Positions 25 to 42,970 of a stretch of 42,970 nt of DNA are shown piece by piece. The stretch spans positions 1-42,970 of the IMG/VR virus record IMGVR_UViG_3300006175_000271. One strand, given 5' to 3'. Numbering within the stretch: the stretch's first letter is position 1; the number at the start of each line of letters is the position of its first letter. Under the pieces are notes generated by a model. That model worked only from the letters and a program-made list of their open reading frames with translations, was not told the DNA's origin and did no database searches. A program made the translations under genes and the position numbers. The DNA is from a virus.

Positions 25-699
25 ATGTTCGCCATTTACTTTCCACAAAAGACCGGCTGCAACGTCCAGCACTTCCACGATGCCGGGCTTGCCGACCTGC
101 TCGACGACGTGGTGCCGGCATTCACAGACTTCCAGCCAGGTCCGGATGGCCTTCAGGGGATCGCCGCGAGCTGGGCCGGCCGGCCCATCACCTGCGGCGA
201 ATTCGAATGGACGAAATGCCGCGGCGGCAAATTCTGGTTGGGCAAACTGGCGAATGAAAAACCCAAGCCGGAGTGGTTCGCACGGGCCGACGTGCAGCTC
301 GGCGCCGATGTGACGTTCGCCGACGGCCAGGAGTGGCACGTTCCGATCGCAAGGCAACTACCGCAACTACTGGGACTCGACGACGCGGGAAATCTGACGA
401 AAAAACTGCTGCCGCAATACCAGCGCTTCTGGGACGAGGCGTTCAAAACCCTTAAGTGGTTCGAGTCGAACGAGAGCCGCGTCATGCACTATGACCAGCG
501 GGAAATGTTCGATTTTGTCTCGCTGGCCCTGTCGATCAACTACCGCCTGAATCCCGACGTCGCGAGCTGGCTTGGCCTGATTCGCAATGACGTCGGATGG
601 TCGGTGGCCGGCGTGGTCACCGAATGGGAAGGTCTCGAAAGGGCGCAAAAAAAAACGGAGTCCGCTGGCTCACCCACCTCCGCTGGCGGCGCGGCCTGA
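25..699 (+). CDS. Putative tail assembly chaperone, G-like (zero-frame product)
   Basis: A 224-residue soluble protein with no motif I can name. Its role is inferred from position. If the contig is circular it follows the major tail protein (40882) and two small genes and directly precedes the tape measure gene, the usual place of lambda G/GT-type chaperones, which bind the tape measure and recruit tail-tube subunits. The last 15 or so residues of the zero frame are Ser/Ala/Gly-rich and look unconstrained, whereas the -1 frame after a run of nine A's (647-655) reads as credible protein. The start follows a TGAACCC array and has no Shine-Dalgarno sequence. Alternative: an unrelated tail protein. 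Confidence 0.7.
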   Translation: MFAIYFPQKTGCNVQHFHDAGLADLLDDVVPAFTDFQPGPDGLQGIAASWAGRPITCGEFEWTKCRGGKFWLGKLANEKPKPEWFARADVQLGADVTFADGQEWHVPIARQLPQLLGLDDAGNLTKKLLPQYQRFWDEAFKTLKWFESNESRVMHYDQREMFDFVSLALSINYRLNPDVASWLGLIRNDVGWSVAGVVTEWEGLERAQKKTESAGSPTSAGGAA

Positions 700-752
700 T
701 GCCGGCGGGCTACAGTCCCTCCGTGGCCGACCTCGTCCTCTTGAACGATTGA
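25..752 (+). CDS. Predicted -1 frameshift product, GT-like tail chaperone
   Basis: If ribosomes slip back one base on the A run at 647-655, after the codons CAA AAA AAA, translation continues AAC GGA GTC and stops at TGA 750-752. The product is 242 residues, with a 32-residue extension in place of 14 zero-frame residues. The extension (NGVRWLTHLRWRRGLMPAGY, then SPSVADLVLLND) is Arg/Leu-rich and ends in a short helix-like segment. From memory it resembles the C-terminal T segment of siphophage chaperones. Frameshifting just upstream of a tape measure gene is the conserved rule in long-tailed phages. The shift is inferred, not demonstrated. Confidence 0.6.
646..656 (+). promoter_or_regulatory. 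Slippery site for -1 ribosomal frameshift
   Basis: C followed by nine A's and C. In the zero frame it reads CAA AAA AAA ACG, which contains A AAA AAA heptamers that allow tandem slippage by -1. It lies about 45 nt before the zero-frame stop. Confidence 0.6.
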
Positions 753-837: not shown

Positions 838-3066
838 ATGAGTGACGGCCTGGTCATCGTGACTCTCTCCGTGCAAGACGCGGAGGCCCTGCGCGCGTGG
901 CAGCGAGGAAAGCAGGGCATCGGCGAGATGGGCCAGGAGCTGAAAGGAACCAAGTCGGCCACCGCCAGCGCCTATCAGGAGCAGAAGAAACTCGCAGACG
1001 GCTTCGCGCAGCTTTCGGCCGCCGGCAAGACGGCCTTTCAAAACCAAACAGCCTGGAGCAAAGGGCTCAGCGCACTCGATAAGCAGCGGGCAGAGGAAGC
1101 CCGCAAAGTAGCCGAAGCCGAAAAACAGGCGGCCGACGCACAGGCCAAGGCGGCGGCCAAAGCCGAAAAGGCCGCCAACAAAGCCGCCGCCGCGCAACGC
1201 AAGCAAGCGGCCCAACATCGCGCCGCCAATGATCAGCTTGTTCGCGATCTGAGCAATACGGCGCTGAAATGGATCGGCGTAAGCAGTGCGATCGATGTGG
1301 CTCGCCGGGCACTTGGCAGCTTTTTGGACGTCTCCGAACAGGTACGCGCGAGCCAGGCCGACGTTACTTTCACGCTCGACGAGACGTTTAGAAAGTACAC
1401 CGCGCAGGCTGGCATCGGAGATGCCGGACGCCAGGCGGCGGCACAAAAGCTGATCGGCATTTCCAGCCGTCAAGCCACCCCGATTCAAACCGTCGAGGGC
1501 ATCGCTCGCCAGCTCGTATCGAGCGGCTACACGAACGAGCAGGTTTTAGCGAAAGGGGGAGTGGCCGAAACAATGGTCGCCACCTCCCGCGCGGCCGCAC
1601 TGACGGGCGAGGAGTTCGACCCCAAGCGCATGGGCGAGGCGGCGACGCACTTTCTCTTGGCCCAAGGCGGCGCCGAAACCGCCGATCAAAAGAAGCTCCC
1701 CGCCGACGTTCGGGCACAGCTTCTTTCGACCGACAAATTTAAGCAGTTGATGCAGGACACGCACGCCCTGTACGAAAACGCGAACCTGCAATTCGAAGAT
1801 CTTCAGTTCTTTGCCGAGGCGGCTCCGGCCCTGGCGCGCGCGGGCATCGACATGCGCACGCAGCTCGCGATGGCCGCTCAAATGCGCGAAGTGCTCGACG
1901 CTGAGACGGCCGCCACGTCGCTACGCAATATCGTCTCGCGCATGCGGACCGCCGGCGCCAGCAAAGAAAAGACGGCCGCACTGGCCTCGATCGGCCTCAA
2001 GCCCGAAGACATCGACCTCGAAGGCGAATCGATCGACGAGGCTCTTGGCCGCTTCCGCGACGCGCTGGCGGGCAGCGACAAAGTAACTCAAGACATCGTG
2101 CTCAAGAAAATCTTCGAGGAGAAGGGTGCGCAGGGCGCCAGCGTGCTTATCGAGCAGGCCGCGCAGCTCCAGATGTTCCGCGCCATGGCCGGCGACCATT
2201 CAAAATTTGCCATCGCCCATCAGCAGGTCACCAGCGGTCCAGCCGCGGCGAAGACGCGGCAGGAGATTCAAAAGCAGGCGCAACGCTTCGAAGGTGTAGG
2301 TGCCCGAGATGAGCTGATCAAGCAGGCGATCGAAAACCAGATCGCCGAGCATCCCGAACTGTCGGCGTACGGCGCGACCATCTACTCCCGCATTCGCAAC
2401 TGGTCGATGGGCTATATCTCGCCGGAAAAGGCGCTCAAGCTGGCCGTCGGCCCGACGAATCGCGATCGCATTCTTGCCCGGCTGCGCGAAGTGCAGGCCG
2501 CCGGCGAGATGCCCGCCGGTATGGGCGGCGGAGCCGATGAAGCCGCCGCCGTCGCTCCCGGCGCGGCGCCCGATCCGGCGCGTATTAAGCAGTATGCCCA
2601 GCGCAAAGCCGCCGCCGAGCAGGAAGCCCAAGCCAAGGTCGACGACAAAGCCGCGGCCAAAGTGGCCAAGCAAATCGCTTCGCTGGAAAAGAAACGCGAC
2701 GCACTCTCCGATCAGCAGCACGAGCTGGCCGAGCGGCTCGACGATCGCCGCCAGCGCATTCGCGACTTGGAAGAAGACCAGCGGCTGCGCGAAGCCGAAC
2801 GTCTTTTACCGCACCGACACCGCGGCGAGGCGGCCGAAGCCATCGAGCGGCAAAAACAGGCCCGAGACGATCGCGAGCATCGGCAGCAGATCGATCGCGA
2901 GCGGCGTGAGGAGCGGGACGACAAGGCCCGCGAACAAAAGATGATGGAGGAACAAAACGCCCTCTTGCGCGAGCTGGTGAAGCTGCAAGGCGGCGCCGCC
3001 AAAGGCGGCGCTGCCGTCGTCAATCGCCCCGGCCAACGGCCGCCGCCCGTGATTGGAGGCAACTAG
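838..3066 (+). CDS. Tail tape measure protein
   Basis: A 742-residue, strongly helical, Ala/Glu/Lys/Arg-rich protein. Residues 75-130 form a long charged coiled coil. Residues 130-480 hold a TMP-core-like stretch with motifs such as TSRAAALTGEEF and AAQMREVLDAETAATSLRNI, typical of the TP901-type tape measure repeat. Residues 590-720 form a second very charged coiled coil. At about 0.15 nm per residue it would set a tail of roughly 110 nm. It threads the tail tube and fixes its length. It follows the presumed frameshifted chaperone and precedes distal tail genes, as in siphophages. The ATG follows the conserved leader described at 785-837. Confidence 0.88.
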   Translation: MSDGLVIVTLSVQDAEALRAWQRGKQGIGEMGQELKGTKSATASAYQEQKKLADGFAQLSAAGKTAFQNQTAWSKGLSALDKQRAEEARKVAEAEKQAADAQAKAAAKAEKAANKAAAAQRKQAAQHRAANDQLVRDLSNTALKWIGVSSAIDVARRALGSFLDVSEQVRASQADVTFTLDETFRKYTAQAGIGDAGRQAAAQKLIGISSRQATPIQTVEGIARQLVSSGYTNEQVLAKGGVAETMVATSRAAALTGEEFDPKRMGEAATHFLLAQGGAETADQKKLPADVRAQLLSTDKFKQLMQDTHALYENANLQFEDLQFFAEAAPALARAGIDMRTQLAMAAQMREVLDAETAATSLRNIVSRMRTAGASKEKTAALASIGLKPEDIDLEGESIDEALGRFRDALAGSDKVTQDIVLKKIFEEKGAQGASVLIEQAAQLQMFRAMAGDHSKFAIAHQQVTSGPAAAKTRQEIQKQAQRFEGVGARDELIKQAIENQIAEHPELSAYGATIYSRIRNWSMGYISPEKALKLAVGPTNRDRILARLREVQAAGEMPAGMGGGADEAAAVAPGAAPDPARIKQYAQRKAAAEQEAQAKVDDKAAAKVAKQIASLEKKRDALSDQQHELAERLDDRRQRIRDLEEDQRLREAERLLPHRHRGEAAEAIERQKQARDDREHRQQIDRERREERDDKAREQKMMEEQNALLRELVKLQGGAAKGGAAVVNRPGQRPPPVIGGN

Positions 3067-3067
3067 C

Positions 3068-3475
3068 GTGATCAATTTCAACGGCCAAAACCTAATGTGC
3101 TTGCACGAATGGCCGCGGGCCGATGCGCCCAAAATCCACGCGCAACGCAATCAGTTCCCAGGCATCTGGGGCGAGTCGCAGATTTTGTTAGGCGTCGGCG
3201 GACGCGACATCGCGATCAATGTCTGGCTGACCGATCCCAGCTTCACCACCGCGCAAGCCGTCGATAACTACCGCGCGGGGTTTGACCTGTCCGTCGGCAC
3301 GACCGCCGGCTTGCAGATCACCGGCAGTGCGCCTTCACAGTGGGGCGACGTCTGTTTTGACGGCTTCGAGCCGACCGGCTCCGTCCTGCCCTGCATCGGC
3401 GGCGATCCACTGATGAAGACCGGCACCTTCTGGCAACCCGGCGTGCTTCACTTCCACCAGTTAACAGTTCCGTAG
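3068..3475 (+). CDS. Putative distal tail protein
   Basis: About 135 residues, beta-rich, without a recognisable catalytic motif. I chose GTG 3068 because GGAGG (3055-3059) sits 8 nt upstream; an ATG at 3053 in the same frame lies inside the tape measure gene and has no such signal. Position between the tape measure and the large tail-tip protein fits a distal tail or tail-tube adaptor. Its stop codon TAG overlaps the first base of a GGGTTCA array. The function is inferred from position only. Confidence 0.65.
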   Translation: MINFNGQNLMCLHEWPRADAPKIHAQRNQFPGIWGESQILLGVGGRDIAINVWLTDPSFTTAQAVDNYRAGFDLSVGTTAGLQITGSAPSQWGDVCFDGFEPTGSVLPCIGGDPLMKTGTFWQPGVLHFHQLTVP

Positions 3476-3569
3476 GGTTCAGGGTTCAGGGTTCAGTGAC
3501 GCGCAAGCGGAAATTCCTTCCCCCCGTATTTCCTGAACCCTGAACCCTGAACCCTGAACCCTGAACCCT
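3475..3569. repeat. Palindromic heptamer element (GGGTTCA)3 - loop - (TGAACCC)5
   Basis: The left arm of GGGTTCA units (3475-3496) and right arm of TGAACCC units (3532-3569) can form a perfect long stem. The 35-nt loop (3497-3531) begins TGACGCGCAAGCGGAAATTC. The same loop, inverted and with three differences, lies between the arms of the element at 40673. The right arm leads into ATG 3572 without a Shine-Dalgarno sequence. Confidence 0.9.
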
Positions 3570-3571
3570 CA

Positions 3572-6679: not shown

Positions 6680-8221
6680 ATGATGAACGAATGCCTCTGG
6701 CGCCGAACCGCCAATACAATCACTTGCGAAACTTGCGGCTACTCGAGGACTTGGCCGCCGAGCAGCGATCTTCCCCATCGACCCTGCACAGCGAAACCGC
6801 AGCCACAAAGACTGGCCATGGCCGTGGGCCCCGGCGAAGAGCTGGCCAATCTGATCGAGCTCGCCGGACTGTCAGACCTCTGTCGTCGCTGCCAGTTCCG
6901 CGCCGATCAAATGAACGCCTGGGGGCCGTCTGGCTGCCGCGAGCGACTTGCTGAGATTTCCGCCTGGCTGCGCGAGAGTTTTTGGAAGCTCGATTGGCGA
7001 AACAAGCTCAAGGCCGCAAAAGCGCTTCGCCCCTTCGTGCAATCCACGCGGCCGATCGAAAGCTTGGTCGAACTGGCCATCGCGCGCGCCGAGATCGCAG
7101 CTTGGAACCAGTCGGAGATCAGTCCCTCCGACGCACTGGAGTTCGCAGCCCGCGTGCCGTGCCGGGTAGTCGATGCCGCGCATTTGGCAGAAGAATTAGC
7201 CAATACGGCCGCCGGGAACGCACTGCAATGGATTGACGATGGCCGGCACGACTGTCGCCTGCCGATTGAGATCGTGCGCGTGACGGGCACGCCAAGCTGC
7301 TTTGCCCAGCCGGGCGGCGCCTACCTCGACTGCCGCCCGGCGCCGCGGCTGCCACCCATCGGGAAAGTTTGCCGCATCGATCAATCGGCCGGCTTCGGCG
7401 ACGCGGTCGCGCTGTCGGCCGTGCTCAGGCACCTGCGTCATTACCATCCTCGCGCGCGGCTGGAGGTAGTCACCGAACCAGACCGGACGGCTCTCTACAG
7501 CACGAGCGTTCCAGACCCGACGCTCGGCCGACCATTGGTGGATCGAATTCTGTTTCGCGACACCGCTGCTTGGTGCACGCACCCGCTGTATCCCTGGCCC
7601 GGTCATTCGCGCAGTTTCCGCGGCTGCCCGAGCACGCCCGTCGAGCACTGTCTGGTCGACCGCCTGGGCCTGCAGCCCGTGCGCGAATTGTGTCATTACT
7701 GGGTACCGGGGAGGGTTCAGGGTTCAGGGTTCAGGGTTCAGCGCTCTGTAGAGAACGGACTGCGTGCGGTTCCGTCCGCCCTCTGCCACTTCGCTGGCGA
7801 GCATCGTAAGCCCCAGAAGAACCTCACCCTCGAGCAGCAATCCGAAGTCGCCTGTCAGTTGCGATGTGCCGGCTACGGCGTCCACGTGCTCGGCGAGGAC
7901 ATCTCCGCCTCGAATGCCGCCGAGCTGATCGACCTGATTCAATCCTGCGACCTGTTCGTCGGCGTCGACTCGGGACCACTGCACATGGCCAGCGCACTGG
8001 GCAAGCGCGCGATCGGCCTCTGGACCTACCTTTCACCCCTGCACTGCTTTTGCCCGGACTCGACGACGCACCACCTGTTATGGCGCGGGCCTGCGCAGGA
8101 TTATGAGCGTTGGCGGATTTGCCGGCCCGTTGACGACGGTCTCGCCTTCTTCCGCGCGAACTACCGATACAGTTGGTGCGACACTTTCGGCGAAGGAATG
8201 GCCAATGCGTTACACTCCTGA
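6680..8221 (+). CDS. Cys-cluster domain fused to GT9-type glycosyltransferase
   Basis: About 513 residues from tandem ATGs at 6680/6683. Residues 1-120 carry a Zn-binding style region (CETC, later CRRC) and the pattern GPGEELANLIELAGL...WGPSGCRERLAEISAWLRES, a small domain common in planctomycete-type proteins. From about residue 230 the sequence matches glycosyltransferase family 9 (heptosyltransferase-like): RIDQSAGFGDAVALSAVLRH at the start of the first Rossmann-like domain and FVGVDSGPLHMASALGKRAI near residue 427 in the sugar-nucleotide site. It could modify host surface glycans or a virion protein. A GGGTTCA array interrupts residues 345-355 in frame. It overlaps the methyltransferase gene by 17 nt. 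Confidence 0.72.
   Translation: MMNECLWRRTANTITCETCGYSRTWPPSSDLPHRPCTAKPQPQRLAMAVGPGEELANLIELAGLSDLCRRCQFRADQMNAWGPSGCRERLAEISAWLRESFWKLDWRNKLKAAKALRPFVQSTRPIESLVELAIARAEIAAWNQSEISPSDALEFAARVPCRVVDAAHLAEELANTAAGNALQWIDDGRHDCRLPIEIVRVTGTPSCFAQPGGAYLDCRPAPRLPPIGKVCRIDQSAGFGDAVALSAVLRHLRHYHPRARLEVVTEPDRTALYSTSVPDPTLGRPLVDRILFRDTAAWCTHPLYPWPGHSRSFRGCPSTPVEHCLVDRLGLQPVRELCHYWVPGRVQGSGFRVQRSVENGLRAVPSALCHFAGEHRKPQKNLTLEQQSEVACQLRCAGYGVHVLGEDISASNAAELIDLIQSCDLFVGVDSGPLHMASALGKRAIGLWTYLSPLHCFCPDSTTHHLLWRGPAQDYERWRICRPVDDGLAFFRANYRYSWCDTFGEGMANALHS
7713..7741. repeat. GGGTTCA array inside the GT9 gene
   Basis: Four GGGTTCA units lie inside the open reading frame and encode RVQGSGFRVQ. The frame stays open, and the conserved GT9 segment FAGEHRKPQKNLT follows about 25 residues later, so the array sits in an interdomain linker. 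Confidence 0.9.
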
Positions 8222-10320: not shown

Positions 10321-10759
10321 AAAAGACCTCCCTCCAAACGACAGCGGCCCCGCGCGGCATGCTGGGCCGGGAAGCCTAGCGCCGCGCAGGGCCGCGTGGA
10401 TTGGTGTTTGGCTTCCCGGCCAGCAACCATCATCGCGCGCACCTTCCGTTCCGTCAACGATTTGCGACCTGAAAACCGTGCGCGGTTTTCGTGTCTGCGG
10501 CATGCCGCCGGTTCATTTCCCAGATTGCCAGTCGGCAGTTTCCGCGCTCAATCGGCAGGCTCAAGCGGCAGTTTCTGCGCGATCGAAATGCAAAACTAAA
10601 AACGCAAACGCAAAATACAAAATGGGCAAGCCGATAAAGCTGAACAGGGGCCGGGGTTCAGGGTTCCGGTCACGCGCTCAAAACCACTCCTGCCTTGGTC
10701 GCTGTTGACCCTGAACCCTGAACCCCAAACCCAAAGTCCGCCGCAGGCTACAAACCGCC
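10321..10759. other. Divergent intergenic region with hairpin and degenerate repeats
   Basis: This gap separates the minus-strand pseudopilin from the plus-strand gene at 10760. It holds an inverted repeat (10361-10376 with 10410-10424; GCCGGGAAGCC / GGCTTCCCGGC), a degenerate A-rich run of GCAAAA-like units (10588-10622), and two pieces of the GGGTTCA family. No coding frame in it convinced me. Promoters for both flanking genes should lie here, but I cannot place them. Confidence 0.6.
10654..10726. repeat. Short GGGTTCA/TGAACCC inverted pair
   Basis: GGGTTCAGGGTTCC at 10654-10667 faces CCCTGAACCCTGAACCCC at 10709-10726 across about 40 nt. It is a degenerate version of the palindromic element at 3475. 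Confidence 0.75.
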
Positions 10760-13305: not shown

Positions 13306-13338
13306 ATCCCTCATCGCTCATCTCTCATCCCTCATCGT
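13306..13338. repeat. TCATCCC heptamer array
   Basis: Units of CTCATC(C/G) repeat with a 7-nt period, the reverse orientation of the array at 12174. TTCAA occurs on both sides, which may be a short duplication. Confidence 0.8.
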
Positions 13339-18463: not shown

Positions 18464-18540
18464 GGGTTCAGGGAAGCGCTCAGGGCGCCGGCTGCTTGTC
18501 CATGCCAGCCGCTGAGCCCTGAACCCCGAACCCCGAACCC
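18464..18540. repeat. Degenerate palindromic heptamer element
   Basis: GGGTTCAGGG at the left faces CCCTGAACCCCGAACCCCGA at the right. The loop itself folds (CTCAGGGCGCC...GGCTGC...GCAGCC-like). It sits just after the integrase stop. Confidence 0.75.
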
Positions 18541-28855: not shown

Positions 28856-28888
28856 TCCCTGGGTCCGGCGATCACAAAAACGGCGAAA

Positions 28889-28917
28889 GGGTTCAGGGTT
28901 CGGGGTTCATGGTTCAG
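28889..28917. repeat. Degenerate GGGTTCA array
   Basis: Four units (GGGTTCA, GGGTTCG, GGGTTCA, TGGTTCA). A base change creates an ATG at 28909 inside the array that opens the methyltransferase frame. Confidence 0.85.
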
Positions 28918-28977: not shown

Positions 28978-29460
28978 ATGAAATCGCGCACCGCGTCTTA
29001 CCGGAAGGAGTGCCACGGCGTGAACGGTAGCGACGAGTGGTACACGCCGATCGAACTGATCCGTTCGCTGGGCGAGTTCGATCTCGATCCGGCCTGCGGA
29101 CCGCAGTGCACCAACCGCACGGCTCGCCGGCGCTATGGCGTGAACGGCCTCGAGCGGGAATGGTTCGGTCGCGTGTGGCTTAACCCGCCGTTCAGTTTTG
29201 TGCCTCCCTGGGTCGACAAGATGATCGAACACAATAACGGCGTGATGCTGGTCTTCGGCCGCGTCGACGCCGTTTGGTTTCAGCGTGCTGCCCAAGCCGC
29301 TTCGGGAGTCTACCTGCTTCGCGGCCGGGTGCAATTCGATCGGCCCAACGGTTCGACCGGCCGGTGCCCGCTTGGCTGCGTGCTGTTCGGTTTCGGCGCC
29401 GCGAACCGCCGCGCCATCCAGCGCTGCGCATGGCCGGGAACCTGGCTCAGTGCCAACTAA
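28978..29460 (+). CDS. Phage-type DNA N6-adenine methyltransferase
   Basis: 160 residues from ATG 28978; the frame opens further upstream at an ATG created by the repeat array (28909). The motif set is that of phage Dam-like enzymes: NGSDEWYTPIELIRSLGEFD LDPACGPQCTN, then VWLNPPFSFVPPW (the NPPF catalytic motif), VMLVFGRVDAVWFQRAAQA and LRGRVQFDRPNG. It probably protects phage DNA from host restriction by methylating adenine. It lies between the terminase and portal genes. Its stop codon is part of a CCACTAA array. Confidence 0.85.
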   Translation: MKSRTASYRKECHGVNGSDEWYTPIELIRSLGEFDLDPACGPQCTNRTARRRYGVNGLEREWFGRVWLNPPFSFVPPWVDKMIEHNNGVMLVFGRVDAVWFQRAAQAASGVYLLRGRVQFDRPNGSTGRCPLGCVLFGFGAANRRAIQRCAWPGTWLSAN

Positions 29461-29508
29461 CCACTAACCACTAACCACTAACCACTATCCACTGCCCACT
29501 CTCCACTC
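29456..29508. repeat. CTAACCA heptamer array
   Basis: Units of ACTAACC turning into ACTATCC/ACTGCCC/ACTCTCC lead straight into ATG 29509 with no Shine-Dalgarno. The stop codon of the methyltransferase is in the first unit. The reverse-complement arm of the same family is at 34418. Confidence 0.88.
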
Positions 29509-29766
29509 ATGCCCATCTTCCGCAACCGCGAGCAACTGTTTGACGGAGAAATACTCGGCCGGCGGATCGAGGCGTTCCTGTCGCGAACCAATAACGCCCT
29601 GGCCAACGTGGCCAAGGCCCTGCCCGACTTCGAGGTCGAGGGCATTGAGGTCTCGCTCACGATCGACGCGGGTCTCAATGTCGCCTTCTCCGGCATCGGC
29701 GGGAGTGTCAGTCGCGACCGCACGTTCAGCTTCACACTCAAGCCGAAGAATCGGGCAGAAAAATGA
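29509..29766 (+). CDS. Small beta-rich protein
   Basis: 85 residues. N-terminal helix FRNREQLFDGEILGRRIEAF, then a beta segment EGIEVSLTIDAGLNVAFSGI GGSVS, ending LKPKNRAEK. The end resembles small trypsin-co-occurring (trypco-like) domains, a weak resemblance only. The stop codon and last residues come from a GGGCAGAAAAAT repeat. Confidence 0.58.
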   Translation: MPIFRNREQLFDGEILGRRIEAFLSRTNNALANVAKALPDFEVEGIEVSLTIDAGLNVAFSGIGGSVSRDRTFSFTLKPKNRAEK

Positions 29767-31781: not shown

Positions 31782-31834
31782 CGTGCGGGCGCGGCCGTCA
31801 CCTGGCTAACCCGACGCACCACCGCAATAAAAAA
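31782..31834 (+). promoter_or_regulatory. Shared structured leader of the protease/capsid gene (copy 2)
   Basis: CGTGCGGGCGCG at 31782-31793 and the 24-nt block at 31804-31827 are identical to the tape measure leader (785-796, 809-832), and it too ends with an A-rich stretch before ATG 31835. The same GTGCG/CGCAC stem can form. Confidence 0.6.
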
Positions 31835-34417
31835 ATGCCTGTACTGTCGGCGAGAAAGCACGCGCAACGCAACCTGGTCCGCGCCGCGTGCCAGACGGAG
31901 TGGCAGATCGAAGAGCAAAAGCTCGAAGCGATCTGCGAGCTGTTGAGCGTCCGCAGCGAAGGGCTCGAATACTCGGCCGACGAGATCCGCGTCCGCATCG
32001 GAGCGACGACACCGAAAGCCGCCGGCGAAGAAGGCGACGATGACGATTACCAGGGCCCCGTCCTGAAAGATGGCGTGGCCGTCCTGCCGCTGCACGGCGT
32101 GCTCGCGCCGAAAATGAATCTGCTGATGAGTGTCAGCGGAGGCACAAGCACGCAGCAGTTCGCTCAGTGGTTCCGGGATTGCATGGCCAATCCGGAATGC
32201 AAAGAAATCGTGATCGACGTCGATAGCCCAGGCGGGACCGCCCAGGGCAACGAAGAGGTCGCCAATCTGATCCGCAGTGCTCGAGGCAAGGGCAAAAAAA
32301 TCACCGCCGTGGCCAACGGCCAGATGTATTCGGCGGCCTACTATATCGCCTCGGCCGCCGACGAAGTTGTCGCTTCGCCCTCCGCCGGCCTGGGCTCGAT
32401 CGGCACGTTTATGATTCACCGCGAAAGCTCGCGGGCCGATCAGAACGCCGGCCACACGTTCAGCGTGATCAAGGCCGGCGCCAATAAGGCCGCCGGCAAC
32501 TCGACCGAACCGCTCAACTCAAGCTCGCGAGCCGTCCTGCAGGAAGGCATCGACGACCTCAACAAAATGTTCGTGCAGGCCGTGGCCAAGAACCGCGGCA
32601 TCACGGCCGAGCAGGTCGAGGAGAATTTCGGCCAGGGCAAGACAATGCTCGCCCCCAGGGCTTTGGCCGCCGGCATGGCTGATCGCATCGCCACGCTCGA
32701 TCAGGTCACCGGCGAAGCCAGGCAGCGCGCCCGCGGCAAAAAGATCACACCGTTCGACGTGGCGGTCATCGGCGCGGAAACGCAGCCGCAACCAAACCAA
32801 AGTACCGGTGCCTCTTCAGTGTCGCCGGAACCCCTTGTATCCGAATGTCCGGGCGCGACTTCGCGCTCGGCTAATAAAAACCCTTCTCACCACCGGAACG
32901 AAAATATGAACCCTCGCATCAAGCAGGCCCTCGTCGCGCGAGGGCTGATCCAGGCCGAAGCCACCGACGTCGAAGCCCAGATCGCGCTTAACGCCTTTTT
33001 CGCCGCCGCCGGCGGCTGGGAAGGCAAGACCGAAGATCAGATCGTCGCGGCTCTCTCGCCCACCGCCCATACGGCCGCCCGGGAAGCGACCAACCTCGAG
33101 CGTGCCCGCATCCAGGACCTGCAAGCCCGCGCCGAGCTGCTCGGCGTCGGCCAGGTCGATCTGCAAGCCGCGATCGATGGCGGCCTGCAAGTCGAAGACG
33201 CGCTGGTCAAGTGGACCGATAAAATGGCGGCGAGCAACAAGCCCGTCCGACTCGAGTCGGGCGAAGCGGCCGCCGACAAGTTTCAGGCCGCCGCCGTCGA
33301 CGTGCTCTGGCACCGCAGCGGCTCGCCCGCCGCGGCCGACGCCAAGCCACTCGACGCCGGCCGCGATCTGCGCCGCAAGACGCTCGTGCAGATCGCCGAG
33401 CTGTCGCTTGCGACGCAGGGCGTCCGCACCGCCGGCATGGACGGCGACGACATTGCCACGCTGGCCTTGCGCGGCAACATGGACACGATTATCATCCGGC
33501 AGGACGGCGGCGGCGACAGCGACTACGGCTACGGCCGCCCCGGCGATTTCCCCAACATCCTCTCGGCCCTTGCCGGCAAGATGCTCGATCTGCCGCTCGA
33601 TTATTATCCCAGCACCTACCGCGACTGGGCCTTCGAGCTGCCCGCCGTGCCCGACTTCAAACCCAAAACCATCATGGCCGCGGGTGAGTTCGGCGAAATG
33701 CCGCGAGTTCCGGACGGCGAAGATTTTACCCAGTCGAACATCGCCGAAGAGGCGAGCTGGATTGCGACCGATGCCTATGGCGACGAGTTCGCTCTTACGC
33801 CGCGCATGGTCGTCGACGACAACCTCGGCGTGTTCGAGGAAGCGGTCCGCGACAAGGCGGTCGCCCACGACATGACGCTCAATCGCTTGTGCGTCGAGCT
33901 GCTCACCGGCAACCAGATCGCCGGCGACGGGTTTGCTCTCTTCGACAACACGCACCATGCCAACGATGTGACCCCGGGCGCCGCGCCAAGTCAGACGCAG
34001 CTCGATACCGTGCGTCAAAAGTTGCGTGCTCAGACCGGCGTCAGCAAGAAGCGCAAGCTCAACCTGACCATCAAGCTGCTCTTGATTCCGCTGGAGCTCG
34101 AAACCACGACCCAGCAGCTCTTGAGCACGAACGTCCGCGTGATCCCGGTCACCACGTCGACGGGCGAAATTTTCCGCGGCATGGTCGACTACCGCGTCGA
34201 GCCGATGCTGTCCGATGCTTCGGCCGTGCAGTGGTATGCCTTCGCGCCGCGGGCCATCGTGCGGCCGATCGTCTACACGCACCAGACCGGCTTCGAGAGC
34301 ATGAAGAGCCGGCTGTATTTCAATCCCAAAAACAACTCCCGCGTTTTCCAGGCCGAGGGCCGCTTCGCCGCCGCCATCCGTCAGTGGCGCGGCGTCGTCC
34401 GTAACGCGGGTCAATAA
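31835..34417 (+). CDS. Fused S49 head maturation protease and major capsid protein
   Basis: 860 residues. Residues 1-310 are an S49 (SppA/ClpP-like) prohead protease: VAVLPLHGVLAPKM, IVIDVDSPGGTAQG, nucleophile Ser166 in QMYSAAYYIASAADEV, GLGSIGTFMIHRES, and Lys218 in IKAGANKAAGN, 52 residues after the serine as in bacterial SppA. Residues 310-357 are a linker of Pro/Ser/Asn. Residues 358-860 are the capsid protein: a helical N-terminal 150 residues (possible scaffold-like region), then KTIMAAGEFGEMPRVPDGED, FTQSNIAEEASWIATDAYGD and LFDNTHHAND, resembling the Mu-like gpT / HK97-fold head proteins. The frame is continuous; an internal start at 32906 is likely used. Confidence 0.88.
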   Translation: MPVLSARKHAQRNLVRAACQTEWQIEEQKLEAICELLSVRSEGLEYSADEIRVRIGATTPKAAGEEGDDDDYQGPVLKDGVAVLPLHGVLAPKMNLLMSVSGGTSTQQFAQWFRDCMANPECKEIVIDVDSPGGTAQGNEEVANLIRSARGKGKKITAVANGQMYSAAYYIASAADEVVASPSAGLGSIGTFMIHRESSRADQNAGHTFSVIKAGANKAAGNSTEPLNSSSRAVLQEGIDDLNKMFVQAVAKNRGITAEQVEENFGQGKTMLAPRALAAGMADRIATLDQVTGEARQRARGKKITPFDVAVIGAETQPQPNQSTGASSVSPEPLVSECPGATSRSANKNPSHHRNENMNPRIKQALVARGLIQAEATDVEAQIALNAFFAAAGGWEGKTEDQIVAALSPTAHTAAREATNLERARIQDLQARAELLGVGQVDLQAAIDGGLQVEDALVKWTDKMAASNKPVRLESGEAAADKFQAAAVDVLWHRSGSPAAADAKPLDAGRDLRRKTLVQIAELSLATQGVRTAGMDGDDIATLALRGNMDTIIIRQDGGGDSDYGYGRPGDFPNILSALAGKMLDLPLDYYPSTYRDWAFELPAVPDFKPKTIMAAGEFGEMPRVPDGEDFTQSNIAEEASWIATDAYGDEFALTPRMVVDDNLGVFEEAVRDKAVAHDMTLNRLCVELLTGNQIAGDGFALFDNTHHANDVTPGAAPSQTQLDTVRQKLRAQTGVSKKRKLNLTIKLLLIPLELETTTQQLLSTNVRVIPVTTSTGEIFRGMVDYRVEPMLSDASAVQWYAFAPRAIVRPIVYTHQTGFESMKSRLYFNPKNNSRVFQAEGRFAAAIRQWRGVVRNAGQ
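32843..32905 (+). promoter_or_regulatory. Third copy of the leader element, inside the fusion frame
   Basis: A GAATGTCCGGGCGCGACTTC stretch, then GGCTAA, then CACCACCG and an A-rich end before ATG 32906. The block order equals that of the leaders at 785 and 31782, though the sequence is less conserved and forms an extra GCGCGA/TCGCGC hairpin. Confidence 0.5.
32906..34417 (+). CDS. Major capsid protein from internal start (predicted)
   Basis: 503 residues in frame with the fusion. ATG 32906 is preceded by the leader-like element at 32843. The N-terminus NPRIKQALVARGLIQAEATD is helical and begins right after the linker. Capsids need hundreds of copies of this part but few of the protease, so internal initiation would provide the excess. 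Whether both products exist is inferred. Confidence 0.6.
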   Translation: MNPRIKQALVARGLIQAEATDVEAQIALNAFFAAAGGWEGKTEDQIVAALSPTAHTAAREATNLERARIQDLQARAELLGVGQVDLQAAIDGGLQVEDALVKWTDKMAASNKPVRLESGEAAADKFQAAAVDVLWHRSGSPAAADAKPLDAGRDLRRKTLVQIAELSLATQGVRTAGMDGDDIATLALRGNMDTIIIRQDGGGDSDYGYGRPGDFPNILSALAGKMLDLPLDYYPSTYRDWAFELPAVPDFKPKTIMAAGEFGEMPRVPDGEDFTQSNIAEEASWIATDAYGDEFALTPRMVVDDNLGVFEEAVRDKAVAHDMTLNRLCVELLTGNQIAGDGFALFDNTHHANDVTPGAAPSQTQLDTVRQKLRAQTGVSKKRKLNLTIKLLLIPLELETTTQQLLSTNVRVIPVTTSTGEIFRGMVDYRVEPMLSDASAVQWYAFAPRAIVRPIVYTHQTGFESMKSRLYFNPKNNSRVFQAEGRFAAAIRQWRGVVRNAGQ

Positions 34418-34532
34418 GTGGGTAGTGGATAGTGGGCAGTGGATAGTTGCGGATGCCGCGAAGCGGCGAAGAAGTCTCCGCGGCGAAGCCGCTCCACTCA
34501 CTAACCACTAACCACTAACCACCAACCACTAA
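34418..34532. repeat. Palindromic CTAACCA element with structured loop
   Basis: The left arm has TGGATAG/TGGGCAG units (34418-34447); the right arm has ACTAACC units (34493-34532), inverted relative to it. The 45-nt loop folds again (GCGGATGCCGCGAAGCGGCG...CGCGGCGAAGCCGC). Confidence 0.85.
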
Positions 34533-35326: not shown

Positions 35327-35335
35327 GAGCGGCCA

Positions 35336-35372
35336 GGGTTCAGGGTTCAGGGTTCAGTGACGCGCAAGCGGA
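35336..35372. repeat. Half of a palindromic heptamer element
   Basis: Three GGGTTCA units (35336-35357) followed by TGACGCGCAAGCGGA, the first 15 bases of the loop at 3497, but no right arm. The loop fragment leads into GGAG and ATG 35379. Confidence 0.85.
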
Positions 35373-39178: not shown

Positions 39179-40090
39179 ATGTCGCGATTGTTTCCCAACC
39201 TGCTGCGCGGATTTGGTCCGTTATCGGGCGGCTCGACGCCGCCCCCACAGCCGATGCTGGCCGTCTCCGACCTGGCCAACGGCACGGGAGCGCGGGCGAC
39301 GATCACGCTTGGCGATGCGGGCGCGAGCAATCCGGTGATGGTCGCACCGCTGCCGCGGTCGCTGGGCAATGTGGCCTGGTCGCTGGGAACAACGATCAAC
39401 GGCAACAATTCAGGCACGCTCAGTCTGGCGAACGGCATTTACCTCGCCCAGGTGCAGGCGGCCGAGAGCGGCCTGTATTCGCTCGAGAGCAACACGGTCG
39501 CCTTCATGGTCACCGGCGGCGGCCTGCCGGTTCGGACGGTAACGCCAGTCGGGAATTTCCCCGTGGCCATGTGCGGTGTCGTCAACCTGGTGGCCAGTTC
39601 CGCGACCTTCCAGTCGATCGTCGGTGCGAGCGACACAGCCCACGCCCTGGCTCGTGTCAGCTTCGAGACCGACGACACGGAGGAAAGTGGCACGACGCGG
39701 CCGCGAGCAATCGTCTATCACGCGCCGGAAGGCTGGGTCGAAAGAAAAGTCGCGCTCAACGAATACCGCCCGTTTTTGAAGATCTGGCTGAGCTTCGAGT
39801 TCTACCCGTCGAACGCGATCGAAGCGGAAAGTTACCGCCAAGATCGTCTGTTCGACGAGCGAACGGAAATGATGAATCGCGCGCAAGCGATCATCGACGA
39901 CATGAAGGCGGCGCAGGGCCTCGGATTAGGCTACCTGCAATCGCCGGGCGGAACCTCTCAGATCACGTTCGGCGAGAGTCGGATCATCGGGGGCCCGGAC
40001 ACGATGGAGGAAGTCCGCGCGGAAGGGGAGCTTGGCGAAGTGCCGGCGTATTACTGGGCAATCGTGCTTGAGCTAGATATCCATGGCTGA
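39179..40090 (+). CDS. Tail terminator / connector candidate
   Basis: 303 residues. AGGAG lies inside the end of the previous gene, so it is coupled to it. N-terminal half is beta-rich (LANGTGARATITLGDAGASN), the C-terminal half helical (FDERTEMMNRAQAIIDDMKA) and includes LGYLQSPGGTSQITFGESRI. It precedes the gp10-like gene, as tail connector genes do. Not recognised by motif. Confidence 0.55.
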   Translation: MSRLFPNLLRGFGPLSGGSTPPPQPMLAVSDLANGTGARATITLGDAGASNPVMVAPLPRSLGNVAWSLGTTINGNNSGTLSLANGIYLAQVQAAESGLYSLESNTVAFMVTGGGLPVRTVTPVGNFPVAMCGVVNLVASSATFQSIVGASDTAHALARVSFETDDTEESGTTRPRAIVYHAPEGWVERKVALNEYRPFLKIWLSFEFYPSNAIEAESYRQDRLFDERTEMMNRAQAIIDDMKAAQGLGLGYLQSPGGTSQITFGESRIIGGPDTMEEVRAEGELGEVPAYYWAIVLELDIHG

Positions 40091-40670
40091 CCAATTACTA
40101 GCGAGCATTGAAATCCCGAAGCTTGGCGAGCTGCTGCTCGACAACGCGGGGCGCACGCACAACAAGATCGCGAACAATTCGATTCGTGCGACGCTGCTGC
40201 ACCATGCGGAGAGCCGCATCGTTCAGCACTTCGCCCGGCCGGCTCACGACCGCTACGGATACGCCGAGCGATCGCCGCACTACCGGCACTTCAAAAAAAA
40301 ACGCTTTCACACGTCGATCGACCTGATTCTCAGCGGCCGCACGAAGCACGCCATGACCACGCAGCGTCAGATCACCGTCGGCGGTACCGCCACCGGGGGC
40401 ACGTTGCGAGGCGATTTGAAATTGAAGTTCCCGTTCGGCCTGGCGGCACAAGCGGCCCATGCGCGGCGTGCTCGGGGACAAAGCAAAGGCGCGCCGCTTT
40501 CGGCCCGTGGCCGGAAGGACGGCAGGCCGCGAGTCACGATCGCACAAATGCGCAAAGAGATCGCCGCCATCACCGCCGACGAACGCTCGCAGATGGCCGC
40601 CGAGGTCCGCGATCGCTACGTCGACGGCGTGAAGACCACGGCGGGACCGAGACAACGAGTGAAAATTTAA
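40083..40670 (+). CDS. Virion morphogenesis protein (HK97 gp10-like candidate)
   Basis: 195 residues, overlapping the previous gene by 8 nt. N-terminal helix LLASIEIPKLGELLLDNAGR, then HFARPAHDRYGYAERSPHYR and a basic region LKLKFPFGLAAQAAHARRAR. Size and place just before the major tail protein fit gp10/neck-type tail completion proteins. Confidence 0.6.
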   Translation: MADQLLASIEIPKLGELLLDNAGRTHNKIANNSIRATLLHHAESRIVQHFARPAHDRYGYAERSPHYRHFKKKRFHTSIDLILSGRTKHAMTTQRQITVGGTATGGTLRGDLKLKFPFGLAAQAAHARRARGQSKGAPLSARGRKDGRPRVTIAQMRKEIAAITADERSQMAAEVRDRYVDGVKTTAGPRQRVKI

Positions 40671-40672
40671 GA

Positions 40673-40880
40673 GGGTTCAGGGTTCAGGGTTCAGGGTTCA
40701 GGAGATACGGGGGGAAAGAATTTCCGCTTGCGCGTTACTGAACCCTGAACCCTGAACCCTCCCCTGAACCCTGAACCCTACCCCGAACCCTGAACCCTGA
40801 ACCCTGAACCCTGAACCCTCGCCCGAACCCTGAACCCTGAACCCTGAACCCTGAACCCTACCCCGAACCCCGAACCCTCC
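40673..40880. repeat. Largest heptamer array, palindromic with inverted loop
   Basis: Four GGGTTCA units (40673-40702), then 40703-40737, which is the reverse complement of the 3497-3531 loop with three differences, then some 15 or more TGAACCC units with CTCCC, TACCCC, and CGCCC interruptions down to ATG 40882. It is the only intergenic gap here over 200 nt between virion genes. Confidence 0.92.
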
Positions 40881-40881
40881 C

Positions 40882-41811
40882 ATGGCAGACCGCTTTTCAA
40901 TTTATCCCGCCCGCTTCGTCTACGCGGGGCCGACGAACCTCGACCTGCAGGAGATGCACGGCTTTTCGATTAAACCCAACGCCAAGAAAGACGAGATCTA
41001 TCTCGGCGGCAATGTCGACGCCTCGGCGTTCATTCTTCAATCCGCTGAGCCCACCGCGACTTTCAAGACGCACGATGTAAAAACCGTGCTCACTGCGGTG
41101 TCACTCACCGCCGGCCTGGCCACGATCGCCACTAGCCAAATGCAGGTACAAAAGCGGGCTGACGGCGGCGTGTTCGCCGGCGGCAGCACGAACACGATCT
41201 ACACGAACAAAAAGGGCTACCTGATGCCCAAGAGGCTGACGGCCAGTGTCGATCGCCCGGCGGAGCTGGAGCTCGAATTCTGGGCGCTGTGGGACGGCAG
41301 CACGTCGGGCACGCCGGCCGTGCCCGTGCCCCCGATCGTAATCGCCACCGCCCAGGCCCTGCTTAGCACGCCGGCCTTCAACGACCAATGGTATTTGGGC
41401 CCCGTCTACGCCAACGGCGTGCAGGTGCCCGGCATCACCGAAATCGACCTCGATTTCGGTCTGCAATATCAGACAAAAATTCTGGACGGAGATGTGTACC
41501 CGCAGGTCGGCAGTGTCGTGAAGCGGCGGCCCAAGAAGAGCACGAAGACGACCGACGCGTCCCAGGCCGGAACGGTGGGCAGCGTGTTCAACGCCGCGCT
41601 GCCGGGAACGCTCGCCATGTATTTGCGCCACGGCGTGGCCGGCGGCGCCCGCACCAGCGATGCCAGCACGGCCCACATCAAGATCTCGGCCGCGGCCGGC
41701 GCCTGGGACGTCAACGATATTTCCGGCGACGGGCAAGACGACGTGATGACCTCGATCAACATCGACCCGACCAGCACGCTCACGCTCAATACCGCATCCG
41801 CGATTCCGTAG
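40882..41811 (+). CDS. Major tail tube protein
   Basis: 309 residues, balanced beta-rich protein: FSIYPARFVYAGPTNLDLQE, IYLGGNVDASAFILQSAEPT, VDRPAELELEFWALWDGSTS, VQVPGITEIDLDFGLQYQTK, TAHIKISAAAGAWDVNDISG. Length and gene order (gp10-like, tail tube, small genes, chaperone, tape measure) are those of a siphophage major tail protein. The ATG follows the big TGAACCC array with no Shine-Dalgarno, remarkable for a protein needed in many copies. Confidence 0.72.
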   Translation: MADRFSIYPARFVYAGPTNLDLQEMHGFSIKPNAKKDEIYLGGNVDASAFILQSAEPTATFKTHDVKTVLTAVSLTAGLATIATSQMQVQKRADGGVFAGGSTNTIYTNKKGYLMPKRLTASVDRPAELELEFWALWDGSTSGTPAVPVPPIVIATAQALLSTPAFNDQWYLGPVYANGVQVPGITEIDLDFGLQYQTKILDGDVYPQVGSVVKRRPKKSTKTTDASQAGTVGSVFNAALPGTLAMYLRHGVAGGARTSDASTAHIKISAAAGAWDVNDISGDGQDDVMTSINIDPTSTLTLNTASAIP

Positions 41812-42943: not shown

Positions 42944-42970
42944 CCTGAACCCTGAACCCTGAACCCTATG
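42944..42970. repeat. 27-base terminal repeat identical to window start
   Basis: Bases 42944-42970 equal 1-27. This is what an assembler leaves at a circular or circularly permuted genome. The repeat content means coincidence or mis-joining is not excluded. Confidence 0.9.

Follow-up and report, generated by a model that had tools for sequence, protein, structure and literature searches.

A probable tail assembly chaperone gene with a conserved -1 extension behind a length-conserved nine-A run: a candidate case of polymerase slippage

The window, by which we mean the whole stretch of DNA that was analysed, is a 42,970-base virus record that also encodes the terminase, portal and capsid of a tailed phage. 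Its bases 1-27 are identical to bases 42944-42970 and its map is therefore probably circular, although this 27-base terminal repeat sits inside a multi-copy GAACCCT repeat, which leaves circularity uncertain. The locus under study opens the record and comprises the following features:

25-699, plus strand: gene for a probable G-like tail assembly chaperone, zero-frame product of 224 aa (open reading frame, 44 relatives, fold model)
647-655, plus strand: A9 run, the putative slippage site, starting at codon position 2 (CAA AAA AAA ACG; read from the sequence)
648-654, plus strand: in-frame slippery heptamer A AAA AAA (read from the sequence)
654-752, plus strand: T-like -1 extension of 32 codons plus TGA at 750-752 (leave-one-out HMM)
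659-711, plus strand: predicted hairpin beginning 4 nt past the heptamer (MFE -29.9 kcal/mol), for which the evidence is weak (z of -0.53 on 65 nt and -1.98 on a 55-nt stretch, not clearly beyond composition)
838-3066, plus strand: tape-measure-like gene, 742 aa (Pfam PhageMin_Tail, 3.6e-10)

The heptamer lies 42 nt upstream of the zero-frame stop, that is, before it, and the -1 frame is open across positions 591-752. A -1 shift at A AAA AAA would add the peptide NGVRWLTHLRWRRGLMPAGYSPSVADLVLLND and is predicted to yield a GT-like product of 242 aa. An earlier note on this DNA had pointed to a nine-A run in a chaperone gene located just ahead of a tape measure gene, and both the run and the position are borne out by the coordinates above. 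Across the putative circular junction, the candidate major tail protein gene (40882-41811) matched no family.

Several repeats and one composite gene were seen elsewhere in the window. Arrays of the 7-base unit GAACCCT or its complement are numerous, several of them directly before start codons:

1-24, 3473-3570, 7711-7755, 10708-10740, 18509-18540, 28887-28917, 35327-35357, 40671-40880 and 42946-42970: GAACCCT-type arrays

A different, AACCACT-like 7-base unit is found at 29442-29515 and 34486-34531, and CTCATCC-like repeats occur at 13306 and 22186. The gene at 31835-34417 (860 aa) joins a Peptidase_S49 protease to a capsid protein. A 30-base leader, present at 809-838 and 31804-31833 with 93% identity between the two copies, directly precedes both the tape-measure gene and this protease/capsid gene and is possibly an expression signal common to both.

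Scans for close relatives with the product of gene 25-699 and other window proteins as queries found none, and searches of phage records gave chance matches only or no match. The portal protein led to a contig of a Planctomycetaceae MAG (L002, 57% identity). A single-protein search of Planctomycetota genomes found homologues of the chaperone-like protein in 10 of 392 genomes, one of which was judged false, a profile search of one class found them in 27 of 397, and further draws, overlapping with earlier ones, in 12 of 392 and 16 of 170; viral contigs contributed seven. In all, 44 relatives were recovered from Planctomycetota genomes and viral contigs, all very diverged (18-33% identity to the window protein in the alignments made), giving 45 genes with the window (L002, L004-L012, L021-L047, L051-L054, L056, L062 and L065; L001, L003, L014-L020, L048-L050, L055, L057-L061, L063 and L064 were left out as duplicates). 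L013 was rejected as a false positive, the matched ORF being unlike the family and the genome having no profile match.

Scans against Pfam, PHROG and NCBIfam matched none of 11 family members; the fused GT-like product had no PHROG match and a single, unrelated Pfam match below the cutoff, and a profile search of the PDB also gave no match. The zero-frame protein was modelled with AlphaFold2 from a 39-row alignment, at a mean pLDDT of 93.5 and a pTM of 0.87, and the sole BFVD match of this model below an E-value of 0.001 was a protein named 'Tail assembly chaperone' (A0A6J5LCU1; E-value 4.7e-4 at a probability of 1.00; TM of 0.32 for the query and 0.50 for the target). Another BFVD entry of that name ranked 18th, where it had no significance, and comparison of the model with PDB structures returned at best an E-value of 0.35 with Foldseek and a Z of 2.7 with VIA-align, values that point in neither direction. 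In light of its position, its dual coding (see below) and the fold match, a tail assembly chaperone is the best reading of gene 25-699, and the family is new to the databases used.

As a second A9 run (40293-40301, in frame AAA AAA AAA CGC) lies inside another gene of the window (40083-40670), the product of which a slip there would alter or shorten, the presence of A9 alone is not proof. A T-like C-terminal domain, with a motif resembling W-R-x-G-L-x-P-x-Y-x-P-T/S-x-A-D-L, follows a slippery site, in the -1 frame, in 31 of the 45 homologues, the window counted. One more (L034) encodes it in the +1 frame, after an A8 run that looks one A short. In three remote homologues (L039-L041), CCCAAAA is followed by a -1 extension of another kind. 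These three form a remote sister group with extensions of about 60 aa that are mutually alike by eye and unlike the T domain. Both the T-like domain and the slippery site are absent from ten (L011, L022, L026, L031, L032, L035, L036, L038, L053 and L054), whose phages apparently lack GT or encode T elsewhere; in several of these ten, the tape-measure-like gene begins at or overlaps the chaperone stop. A tape-measure-like gene or a long ORF comes next in most relatives.

The window extension was then scored against a leave-one-out HMM built from 24 relatives. The -1 frame reached 45.2 bits (E 2.8e-16), the zero frame -2.2 and the +1 frame gave no match; none of 500 nucleotide shuffles and none of 500 residue shuffles scored as high, the best reaching 9.0. 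The same procedure applied to 25 extensions showed that 22 beat all 500 nucleotide and all 500 residue shuffles, the weak ones being L004, L012 and L030, and six extensions outside the model (L046, L051, L052, L056, L062 and L065) matched the HMM with E-values of at most 1.8e-4. Heptamers of the form X XXY YYZ (Y = A or T) are found elsewhere just 6 times in the 6,851 codons of 27 of these genes. The A9 run and the -1 extension are thus confirmed as real, beyond chance, and the two-product coding of gene 25-699 is well supported by conservation. That the 32 codons of the -1 frame are protein-like, as the earlier note had held, is upheld by these scores. Its description of the zero-frame tail as unconstrained fits the variation in the length and sequence of that tail across relatives. 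The conserved -1 domain, the shuffle tests and the chaperone fold match together support the layout as a genuine G/GT pair, as had been proposed, in a family without a Pfam, PHROG or NCBIfam model. The comparison of homologues also sets a limit on that proposal: with ten genes out of 45 lacking site and extension, and five more having another -1 heptamer in place of the A run that 30 genes possess, the trait is common, not universal.

We next considered what slips. Among the 30 homopolymer sites, the run is nine A's long in 25, eight in four and ten in one; none has six or seven A's and none exceeds A10. The codon position at which the run starts is variable (position 1, 2 or 3 in 5, 17 and 8 genes, respectively), and the tree implies no fewer than 8 changes of this phase. 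A ribosomal heptamer would need a minimum of 6-7 A's in phase 3, 7-8 in phase 2 and 8-9 in phase 1. If the flanks drifted freely around a 7-nt heptamer, exactly nine A's would be expected in 10.6% of the sites (binomial p 3e-20), and in 1.7% under a 6-nt model (p 1e-39); these tests, and that on phases 2 and 3 given below, count the relatives as independent, with end branches that are long (median 1.26). Lysine codons elsewhere in the chaperone genes are AAA in 91 cases and AAG in 100. In the 29 loci besides the window (138,144 bp), the sites make up 29 of the 30 A/T runs of at least 8 and all 25 of those of at least 9. The retention of nine A's whatever the codon phase is what transcriptional slippage predicts and not what classic slippage on a ribosomal heptamer does, and the A-run statistics favour RNA polymerase slippage. 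Baranov et al. (2005, PMC1088944) regard purposeful transcriptional slippage as very likely wherever homologues conserve a 9A length.

The foremost alternative is programmed -1 frameshifting of the lambda type by ribosomes alone on A AAA AAA, the nine-A length being incidental, which we regard as possible but doubtful. Every A9 contains A AAA AAA, so ribosomal slippage could occur at each A9 site, and the heptamer is in frame at the poly-A sites. In 10 of the 30 genes, an SD-like motif of at least 5 nt lies within the 22 nt upstream of the run. Gene bodies would lead one to expect 1.49 such genes and resampling of synonymous codons 5.35 (a count as high arose in 16 of 2000 simulations), and this modest enrichment may point to a ribosomal stimulator in some of the genes. 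Five relatives have sites of ribosomal type that are not homopolymers (GGGAAAA in L005, GGGAAAC in L025 and CCCAAAA in L039-L041), with a strong hairpin downstream of the site in L025 (z -5.07), and Atkins et al. (2016, PMC5009743) present G/GT as a case of ribosomal frameshifting that is conserved widely among long-tailed phages. This alternative does not, however, account for the phases in which fewer A's would suffice: even when the count is confined to phases 2 and 3, in which the minimum is below nine, 20 of 25 genes have nine (p 4e-16), and sites with six or seven A's do not occur. Nor was conserved downstream RNA structure enriched when looked for, z being below -1 at 6 of 26 sites compared to 19% of 104 gene-body controls. 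The heptamer within A9, the SD-like motifs and the ribosomal-type sites nevertheless make a mixed polymerase/ribosome mechanism, or ribosomal slippage alone, possible, and as both routes yield the identical peptide QKKNGVRW, proteomics alone cannot tell the mechanisms apart.

Three other explanations carry far less weight. Ribosomes might slide on poly(A), a process distinct from tandem tRNA slippage that would presumably depend on length and not on phase, but in an E. coli cell-free system it became robust only from A11 and yielded little at A9 and A10 (PMC4363877), and the longest site here is A10, which makes sliding very improbable. Homopolymers are prone to sequencing error, and the A8 run of L034 with its T domain in the +1 frame is explicable by one missing A; yet an error in sequencing or assembly, or a decaying gene, whereby the real run would have one A fewer and the two frames would simply form one gene, is hard to reconcile with the repeated appearance of the out-of-frame layout, in 31 of 45 homologues and on separate contigs, and we give it still less credence. 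Spurious long frames are common in GC-rich sequence, but the gap between the leave-one-out score of the -1 frame and those of the zero frame and the best shuffle makes a -1 frame open by chance and without a product the least credible of all.

Taken together, our results argue, with moderate confidence, for a tail assembly chaperone made in two forms through a -1 slip at A9, most likely by way of the polymerase. The G-like protein of 224 aa would be made from most messages, and a net backward slip of one base at A9 in a minority would give the 242-aa GT-like protein with its conserved 32-residue T-like C-terminus. The most likely route is that RNA polymerase slips on A9, so that some transcripts carry an additional A; ribosomes may also slip by -1 on the A AAA AAA of the same site. 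By analogy with lambda, the part common to both forms may bind the tape measure protein, with recruitment of the tail tube protein falling to the T part. A few relatives would have swapped the A run for sites usable presumably by ribosomes only. Whether the family of planctomycete-phage chaperones as a whole sets its G:GT ratio by polymerase slippage on a phase-free A9, some branches having switched to ribosomal GGGAAAA, GGGAAAC or CCCAAAA, is in our judgement evenly poised. The -1 frameshift of the earlier note is therefore retained as regards the conserved dual coding, but it need not be ribosomal, the A-run statistics pointing instead to RNA polymerase. If run length and not codon phase is selected, evolution would conserve the shift itself rather than the slipping machine, as with dnaX. 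With an A9 that is conserved in length but free in phase, polymerase slippage has to be taken seriously as a testable alternative to the textbook mechanism. As the chaperone family has no database model, the 3' ends of its genes are probably mis-annotated.

The production of G and GT is textbook ribosomal frameshifting in tailed phages, and Xu, Hendrix and Duda reportedly described in 2004 the conserved frameshifts of tail assembly chaperones, lambda gpG/gpGT among them. Antonov et al. (2013, PMC3711429) measured frameshifting of 6-7% in an HK97-like chaperone cluster, PRFect treats chaperones as ribosomally frameshifted (PMC10885494), and possible slippage has been suggested for the tape measure gene itself (PMC6095929); a search of the open literature on slippage and frameshifting in tail chaperones and on planctomycete phage tails found, in the text accessible, no transcriptional slippage in a tail chaperone. 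Akin to lambda gpG/gpGT (as described in PMC5009743), the locus described here would turn one gene, situated immediately ahead of the tape measure gene, into two products by a -1 slip close to the 3' end of G, with a T-like domain confined to the minor product. It differs from lambda in having no detectable sequence family in common with it, in a nine-A run that is fixed in length and not in phase where lambda has a fixed heptamer, and in that the slip may be made by RNA polymerase.

PMC1088944 provides two parallels for the run itself. Thermus thermophilus dnaX also has A9 and uses transcriptional slippage while dnaX of E. coli is ribosomal, so that homologues of one gene exchange polymerase and ribosome slippage, as we propose for the chaperones; slippage gives the shorter product in Thermus, whereas here it would lengthen the product. 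The 9A IS elements of Deinococcus and others likewise link two overlapping frames by a conserved 9A, sometimes 8A, although they encode a transposase and not a tail protein. Although its proteins are unrelated and its machine is one of cellular secretion, the Shigella spa13/mxiE system, as described in PMC5009743, likewise uses transcriptional slippage to make a C-terminally extended minor product for a length-controlled machine.
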